Shown here: positions 40,453 through 41,306 of the stretch, one piece after another | How the letters are laid out: every line of letters starts with the position of its first letter | Numbering within the stretch: the stretch's first letter is position 1 | Source: Hyphomicrobiaceae bacterium | GTDB lineage: Bacteria; Pseudomonadota; Alphaproteobacteria; Rhizobiales; HXMU1428-3 | Length of the DNA stretch: 53,443 nucleotides | Reading direction: 5' to 3' | Assembly: GCA_021775775.1 (NCBI GenBank) | Contig: JAJFHF010000101.1 | Location: 1 to 53,443, forward strand | Made by a program: the position numbers and the translations under genes | Notes under the pieces: model-generated | Database searches by the model: none | Told to the model about the DNA's origin: nothing | The model's input: the letters and a program-made list of their open reading frames with translations, nothing else

Positions 40453-40959
40453 TTAAGTAGTTTTATCGTCTTTAAAATCGTCAACTTTGGCAGCATCAGT
40501 TATGTTTTTCTTTTTGGCTGACCCAAGCAACGCGCGCAAATCGCGCACCTTACTACGCGCCAATTGGCGCGCGTCTTCAAATTGTTTTGGTTCCCAAATT
40601 TGGAACTTATCACCCAGCCCGACAAACGTAACCGTGTTAGATAAACCAATCACATCACGCAACCTTTGCGGCAAAACGATGCGTCCATCGCTATCCAGCT
40701 TTAAATATTCACTTTCACCAAACAACGCAGTGGCCAATTGATCTTTTTCATCAGAATAAGGCGCTAATTCTTCCAACAAACCGCGAATATGTTTGACCAA
40801 ACGAGGCCCCCCCGCATCAAGGGCGGGCGCATCAAGCGCCGGGTGACAAAAAATTTCATCTGATTGTTCTTTGGCCAACACCGCACGAAAGGCTGCCGGA
40901 ACCGAAACGCGCCCCTTAGCATCAATCTTATTTGTAAAACTGGAAACAAACTCTTCCAT
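40453..40959 (-). CDS. mraZ: Transcriptional regulator MraZ
   Basis: MraZ is an AbrB-like DNA-binding protein that controls the dcw cluster, usually by binding TGGGN repeats before its own gene. The 168 residues (from the ATG at 40959; a TTG at 40965 would add two) carry both halves of the tandem fold, each with the DxxxR element: NKIDAKGRVSVPAAFR (about 10-25) and LKLDSDGRIVLPQRLRD (about 86-102). The C-terminal tail is longer and Lys/Asp-rich. It is the first gene of the cluster, and a box array lies 106-160 bases upstream of its start. Confidence 0.95.
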   Translation of the reverse strand: MEEFVSSFTNKIDAKGRVSVPAAFRAVLAKEQSDEIFCHPALDAPALDAGGPRLVKHIRGLLEELAPYSDEKDQLATALFGESEYLKLDSDGRIVLPQRLRDVIGLSNTVTFVGLGDKFQIWEPKQFEDARQLARSKVRDLRALLGSAKKKNITDAAKVDDFKDDKTT

Positions 40960-41064
40960 TAACAAAACACTCGCACAAAAAACAAAAAATTGGGGGAGGT
41001 CGCAGCAAATTCGGTGGCCTCATTGAAAGTGCGCTAAACCAACCCCCACCCCGCATCATCCGAT

Positions 41065-41119
41065 TGGGTATATATGGGATACTATGGAAAATTATGGGAG
41101 TCAATGGATTTTAATGGTT
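41065..41119. promoter_or_regulatory. Array of TGG-type repeats, probable MraZ operator
   Basis: Six TGG-led pentamers follow each other on the plus strand with exact 10-base spacing: TGGGT at 41065, TGGGA at 41075, TGGAA at 41085, TGGGA at 41095, TGGAT at 41105 and TGGTT at 41115. A degenerate AGGAT follows at 41125. E. coli MraZ binds three TGGGN repeats separated by five bases, the same geometry. That MraZ binds here is inference from position and pattern. Confidence 0.8.
41076..41104 (-). promoter_or_regulatory. Possible mraZ promoter overlapping the box array
   Basis: On the minus strand TTGACT (41104-41099) is followed after 17 bases by TATCCC (41081-41076), a good -35 with a weak -10. 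It would give a leader of roughly 110 bases before mraZ. It lies inside the repeat array, so a bound MraZ would block it. Confidence 0.45.
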
Positions 41120-41306
41120 AATTAAGGATTTAAAATGGTTTTCCACACCCCTTAATTTTGAGAGTTCAATCTATGACCATCATAGAAAAGTGAATGAACC
41201 CCATAGCTAATGGTCCCCCTCCCCAGCTATCACAGGCGCAACAATTGACACTGCGTGACAGCCCAGATAAATCAATGGCAACCATCAGTGATAGGAAAGA
41301 GACAAA

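Follow-up and report, generated by a model that had tools for sequence, protein, structure and literature searches.

What protein reads a run of TGG boxes repeated every 10 bp in front of mraZ, and what would its binding do to the dcw cluster that mraZ heads? Few bacterial regulators are as conserved as MraZ, yet its logic is known from a few species. Both array and gene lie in the window, the whole stretch of Hyphomicrobiaceae DNA that was analysed (53,443 nt):

40453..40959, minus strand: mraZ, at the head of an intact dcw cluster, above the Pfam and NCBIfam cut-offs
41065..41119, plus strand: six strict TGG(G) boxes in 10-bp steps, CCA when read on the mraZ coding strand
41125..41129, plus strand: degenerate seventh unit AGGAT, in phase, CCT on the mraZ strand, at the same place in all genus members
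41136..41140, plus strand: eighth unit TGGTT, after an 11-bp step and one base out of phase, kept by all genus members

A phased array of boxes precedes mraZ

The six TGG triplets start at 41065, 41075, 41085, 41095, 41105 and 41115 (plus strand), and the six-unit run spans 41065-41117. Since mraZ is encoded on the minus strand, its coding strand shows the units as CCA, and the boxes point away from the gene. Six unbroken boxes and a degenerate seventh had been described in the first-pass annotation, and these positions, with AGG at 41125, bear this out; the eighth TGG, at 41136, had been overlooked, and across the order Hyphomicrobiales, in which named relatives place the genome, a C-rich unit is seen again with a comparable slip. 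The accompanying proposal that all boxes share one face of the DNA holds approximately, given that the helical repeat of DNA is ~10.5 bp per turn and each 10-bp unit consequently drifts by ~17 degrees, a drift partly reset by the conserved 11-bp step upstream. Conservation in relatives, on which the same annotation had staked its reading, was observed in 8/8 genomes of the genus, which have between four and six strict CCA units along with the same degenerate units. The six units of the window are the upper end of the usual range and not unique; the notion of a 'six-box' record was rejected, since six strict boxes are reached in 11/125 Hyphomicrobiales loci.

By chance, 3.6e-5 six-unit TGG runs with a 10-bp step are expected in the window on both strands, and when the intergenic region was shuffled 20,000 times with dinucleotides preserved, the longest TGG run had four units. 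When all 64 triplets were scanned in the window at periods 7-15, the TGG array was the longest run. In a search of all 2.7 Mb of the genome it was also the sole match to patterns of four and of five boxes (none for the reversed-pattern control), and no other run of four or more units was found there. Looser 3-box matches numbered 21 across the genome versus 5 in the control. Seven loose matches were inspected as candidates for a second MraZ target and set aside, five being inside long ORFs and the remaining two, which overlap on contig C24, being read as a short open frame.

The gene product scored 65.9 bits against PF02381 (cut-off 23) and 164.7 bits against the NCBIfam equivalog NF001477 (cut-off 162), so that the curated cut-off for the MraZ family is exceeded, and its predicted single-chain model has the MraZ fold. 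This model, built from a 73-sequence alignment (pLDDT 90.8, compared to 47 for a 7-sequence version), matched MraZ structures including that of Mycoplasma (Z ~17), among them PDB 9sz7, Mycoplasma MraZ 'in complex with 4 box promoter'. At 168 aa, the window protein has a C-terminal tail (40453-40510, minus strand) ~17-19 residues longer than in its genus relatives (149-151 aa). After mraZ, on the same strand, come rsmH, ftsL, ftsI, murE, murF, mraY, murD, ftsW, murG, murC, murB, ddl, ftsQ and ftsA (names beyond ftsI were read from translations); divergent neighbouring genes encode a DUF3224 protein and a KefB-like exchanger. Both direct TGG(G)-type repeats with a 10-bp period and a position upstream of mraZ as first dcw gene, the marks of an MraZ box array, are present.

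The boxes are inverted and lie on the predicted core promoter in Alphaproteobacteria

Placing the array relative to the promoter requires three predicted elements:

41099..41104, minus strand: predicted -35 element, TTGACT, contained in one box unit (CCATTGAC), by the alphaproteobacterial RpoD consensus (PMC8144410)
41076..41081, minus strand: predicted -10 element TATCCC after AG (Caulobacter-type GCtANAWC), its 3' half being the next box
41068..41070, minus strand: predicted mraZ/dcw transcription start, near 41069, placed from the -10 position

A TTGACT -35 element within the array had been noted before, and we can add that it runs from 41104 to 41099 on the minus strand, as mraZ does. Its location within one box unit is the commonest arrangement among the Alphaproteobacteria sampled. 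The predicted start lies 6-8 nt after the -10 and is overlapped by the first box. The window -10 (AGTATCCC) is a weak match, and a generic sigma-70 scan of the mraZ upstream region returned no promoter match, which we attribute to a -10 that is alphaproteobacterial in type and merged with a box. Alignment of 120 alphaproteobacterial loci yielded the consensus CC[AG]TTGACNC CCATNNNATC CCATGNTATC CCATNNNTGC CCG, with a core form that ends in CCAT after CCATGNTATC; it contains TTGACGS followed 14 nt on by GCTATCCC, near the Caulobacter RpoD consensus TTGaCgS/GCtANAWC (PMC8144410). Phased CC columns occur at -31, -21, (after an 11-bp step) -10, 0, 10, 20, 30 and 40, eight in all, with values close to 100% in the central four and of about half in those on either side. 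The modal strict box count is four (57/125 loci), which fits the Mycoplasma complex with four boxes whose structure has been solved (9sz7).

Upstream of mraZ in 133 loci (those of the order plus a few from other Alphaproteobacteria), distances between CCA pairs peaked at 10, 20 and 30 bp (409, 290 and 169, against a background of ~20) and those between TGG pairs were flat; nearly all mraZ-bearing alphaproteobacterial loci sampled have 3-6 strict units. Relative to mraZ, the boxes are inverted in 124/127 Hyphomicrobiales loci and in 32/34 other alphaproteobacterial loci, whereas in non-alphaproteobacterial Pseudomonadota 22/25 loci have same-strand TGG boxes and 0/25 inverted ones, these counts being descriptive, as some loci are near-duplicates and they are not phylogenetically independent. 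Among the three Hyphomicrobiales loci scored as non-inverted, one has only 164 nt of upstream DNA, one is a tie, and the last, L130, on inspection does have the array with an irregular step; the two other exceptions are loci of Rhodobacteraceae type (L124, L127), where reduced remnants, CCCATTGATTT...CCCATG, are left. One contig labelled Pirellulaceae (L103) has a Hyphomicrobium-like mraZ locus, probably through a binning error.

In the non-alphaproteobacterial loci the first box lies 18-43 nt downstream of TTGAC wherever the latter was found. Boxes in the window cover the -35, the spacer, the -10 and the predicted start, while elsewhere all boxes are downstream of the -35, so the operator has been turned round as well as displaced upstream, and the E. 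coli/Burkholderia-type layout (coding-strand boxes that all follow the -35 and lie at the -10 or beyond it) is absent from the window. Throughout the Alphaproteobacteria sampled, then, the operator is inverted and moved onto the core promoter compared to E. coli and other Pseudomonadota. The first-pass annotation was right to place an array of conserved phase upstream of mraZ but missed both its inversion and this move. No earlier report of the inverted orientation was found in the literature searched, which excluded Eraso 2014 and Fisunov 2016, so prior notice is possible. Across 73 MraZ proteins drawn from the two orientation groups, the motifs that face the DNA, DxKGR and DxxGR, do not vary, which suggests that box reading is unchanged and that only the side of the promoter differs.

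The operator core is absent where mraZ is absent

mraZ is missing from 26/81 genomes sampled in the order (G011-G085), and none of these 26 has a PF02381 match. Using the pattern CCRTTGACNNCCATN6CCATNNTATCCCA with up to three mismatches, we found the operator core in 26/28 mraZ-bearing Hyphomicrobiales genomes, with every match at the mraZ locus and zero in the control, and in 0/26 mraZ-less ones, in which, moreover, none of the 22 intact rsmH loci had chains of more than two units. The same contrast is seen within families, since operator presence follows mraZ both in f28 (G034 without and G076 with the gene) and in f35 (G041 and G082, one genome of either kind). Its co-loss with mraZ is the strongest evidence for MraZ as the likely reader of the array, which, judged from these sequence comparisons, is almost certainly an MraZ operator. 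That so conserved a regulator has been lost repeatedly, even inside otherwise mraZ-bearing families (f28, f35), is an observation in its own right.

Other elements at the locus: a leader hairpin and a CtrA-like site

Two further elements flank or overlap the array:

40984..41047, minus strand: terminator-like element of the leader, a hairpin with a U run behind it, at an UpsM-like place, in 8/8 genus members
41111..41125, minus strand: CtrA-like site TTAA-N7-TTAA (TTAATTAACCATTAA), perfect, overlapping boxes 6 and 7

The leader hairpin is GC-rich, with an invariant GAGGCCAC in its loop region and then at least five U in 8/8 genus members. Its inner helix has compensatory changes, and the covariation score of the whole structure was reached by 0/500 shuffles; the fold of the window's own leader was no stronger than those of shuffles, and an Rfam search of the leader gave no match. 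It is a putative, genus-specific terminator-like element. Other Hyphomicrobiales (L019-L120) have a conserved leader after the array that starts CCG[TA]CCGCACCGGG and includes a CGACCGCCACGG element, mostly without a U run, and this may be an RNA structure.

TTAA-N7-TTAA is perfect in the window and in one relative. With at most one mismatch it occurs in 64/119 loci, compared to 4.5 in shuffles, and in 47 of these the TTGA of the -35 supplies three of its letters. TTAA stands exactly 11 nt before TTGAC in 47/120 loci, mostly of the Hyphomicrobium set, as against 1-8 at other positions. This spacing points to a possible control of the MraZ operator by CtrA, and for S. meliloti a CtrA motif ahead of mraZ had already been predicted (PMC3616915).

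A model for steric autorepression and its alternatives

In the mraZ promoter the core boxes, four in number and strictly conserved, fall on the -35, on the spacer and on the 3' half of the predicted -10, and an overlap of this kind would mean that MraZ and RNA polymerase cannot share the DNA. We favour, with a probability of about 0.8, an autoregulatory MraZ operator in which occupancy of the core boxes would exclude RNA polymerase and repress the dcw cluster. Ring-shaped MraZ oligomers would contact successive boxes and, as MraZ accumulates, block the core promoter in a negative autoregulation of the cluster. Boxes 6-8, farther upstream, may seat a second ring beside the first or add avidity, and the extra boxes probably do raise it. 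From the sequence we infer MraZ binding, repression, the start site and the presence of one or two rings, and likewise a role of the array in setting the dose of the whole cluster, which the first-pass annotation had also proposed, along with repression of mraZ. E. coli MraZ binds and represses via such repeats (PMC7761207), and in M. genitalium mraZ deletion raises the transcripts of the cluster (PMC8475190).

MraZ is not a repressor everywhere, given that its overexpression raised FtsZ in M. gallisepticum (PMC8475190). It could thus be an activator or dual regulator here as well, if boxes upstream of the -35 were to place a ring that helps the polymerase and only full occupancy were to repress. 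Box 6, AGG and the eighth TGG are all upstream of the -35 unit, unlike in E. coli, and about half of 119 loci keep in-phase CC units upstream. Yet these upstream boxes are the degenerate ones, whereas those strictly conserved overlap the -35, spacer and -10, where bound protein would block polymerase, and we consider such activation improbable. Less credit still is due to a reading of the phased CCCAT repeats by CenR, NtrX, CtrA, MucR or a nucleoid protein, or to an intrinsic DNA-curvature element. CenR and NtrX are enriched upstream of Rhodobacter mraZ, and the CtrA-like site over boxes 6-7, with its TTAA 11 nt before TTGAC, would point the same way; but the published CenR (TGA-N8-TGA) and NtrX (GCA-N9-TGC) motifs differ from the repeat, a CtrA-like site explains TTAA and not CCCAT every 10 bp, and the confinement of the operator to mraZ, with none in the mraZ-less genomes, speaks against any reader other than MraZ. 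Slippage can produce short tandem units, and a repeat without function made in this way, or by chance, is scarcely conceivable here: besides the minute chance expectation, the sequences between boxes differ and other families and orders keep the boxes at equal distance from the promoter, so that conservation and spacer diversity refute it.

Steric autorepression by MraZ remains our preferred reading, and around it a broader scenario can be sketched, as a speculation with the odds well against it. An early alphaproteobacterial ancestor would have reversed and moved the operator, keeping one end anchored near the -10 and start in both lineages, so that it now reaches upstream over the -35 and the CtrA-like site. 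Its eight phased units, one per subunit of a DNA-wrapped octameric ring or shared by two adjacent 4-box rings, would in that case act as a cooperative switch in competition with both RNA polymerase and CtrA for the cell-division cluster.

A class-wide inverted operator on the core promoter, lost together with mraZ, amounts to a clean experiment of nature: from it one can see which boxes matter and where the dcw promoter of Alphaproteobacteria, symbionts and pathogens included, is likely to lie. It predicts direct steric repression in this class and suggests contact between the MraZ and CtrA control of division.

Comparison with known mraZ control regions

Like the UpsM leader of Rhodobacter sphaeroides (PMC5089854), the window leader has a putative Rho-independent terminator-like hairpin downstream of the mraZ promoter; the sequences differ, and the genus of the window is outside Rhodobacteraceae, to which the UpsM arrangement was held exclusive (PMC5089854). 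A leader of the UpsM type would further be expected to yield an abundant Hfq-bound sRNA. With the Pmra operator of E. coli (three TGGGN direct repeats; L238) the array shares TGG(G) repeats in 10-bp steps before mraZ and dcw, and a homologous MraZ. The count of three repeats given for E. coli in the first-pass annotation agrees with the three boxes at 10 bp of K-12, compared to six strict ones in the window. The E. coli boxes are on the mraZ strand, beyond the -10 and near the start, while those of the window are on the opposite strand and reach from the start across and beyond the -35. The B. cenocepacia site, four 7-nt repeats with 3-nt spacers bound by MraZ in gel shifts (PMC7761207), has the same 10-bp period and overlap with the dcw start (predicted in the window), but is found beyond the -10, and its repeats read GTG on the strand of mraZ (PMC7761207). 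Mycoplasma MraZ boxes (AAAGTG[T/G]) differ in sequence, in their opposite polarity as published and in being four in number. They resemble the array in forming a single genomic site at mraZ, served by a protein of the same fold (Z ~17), and, as in 9sz7, recognition of several boxes by one MraZ oligomer is predicted here too.
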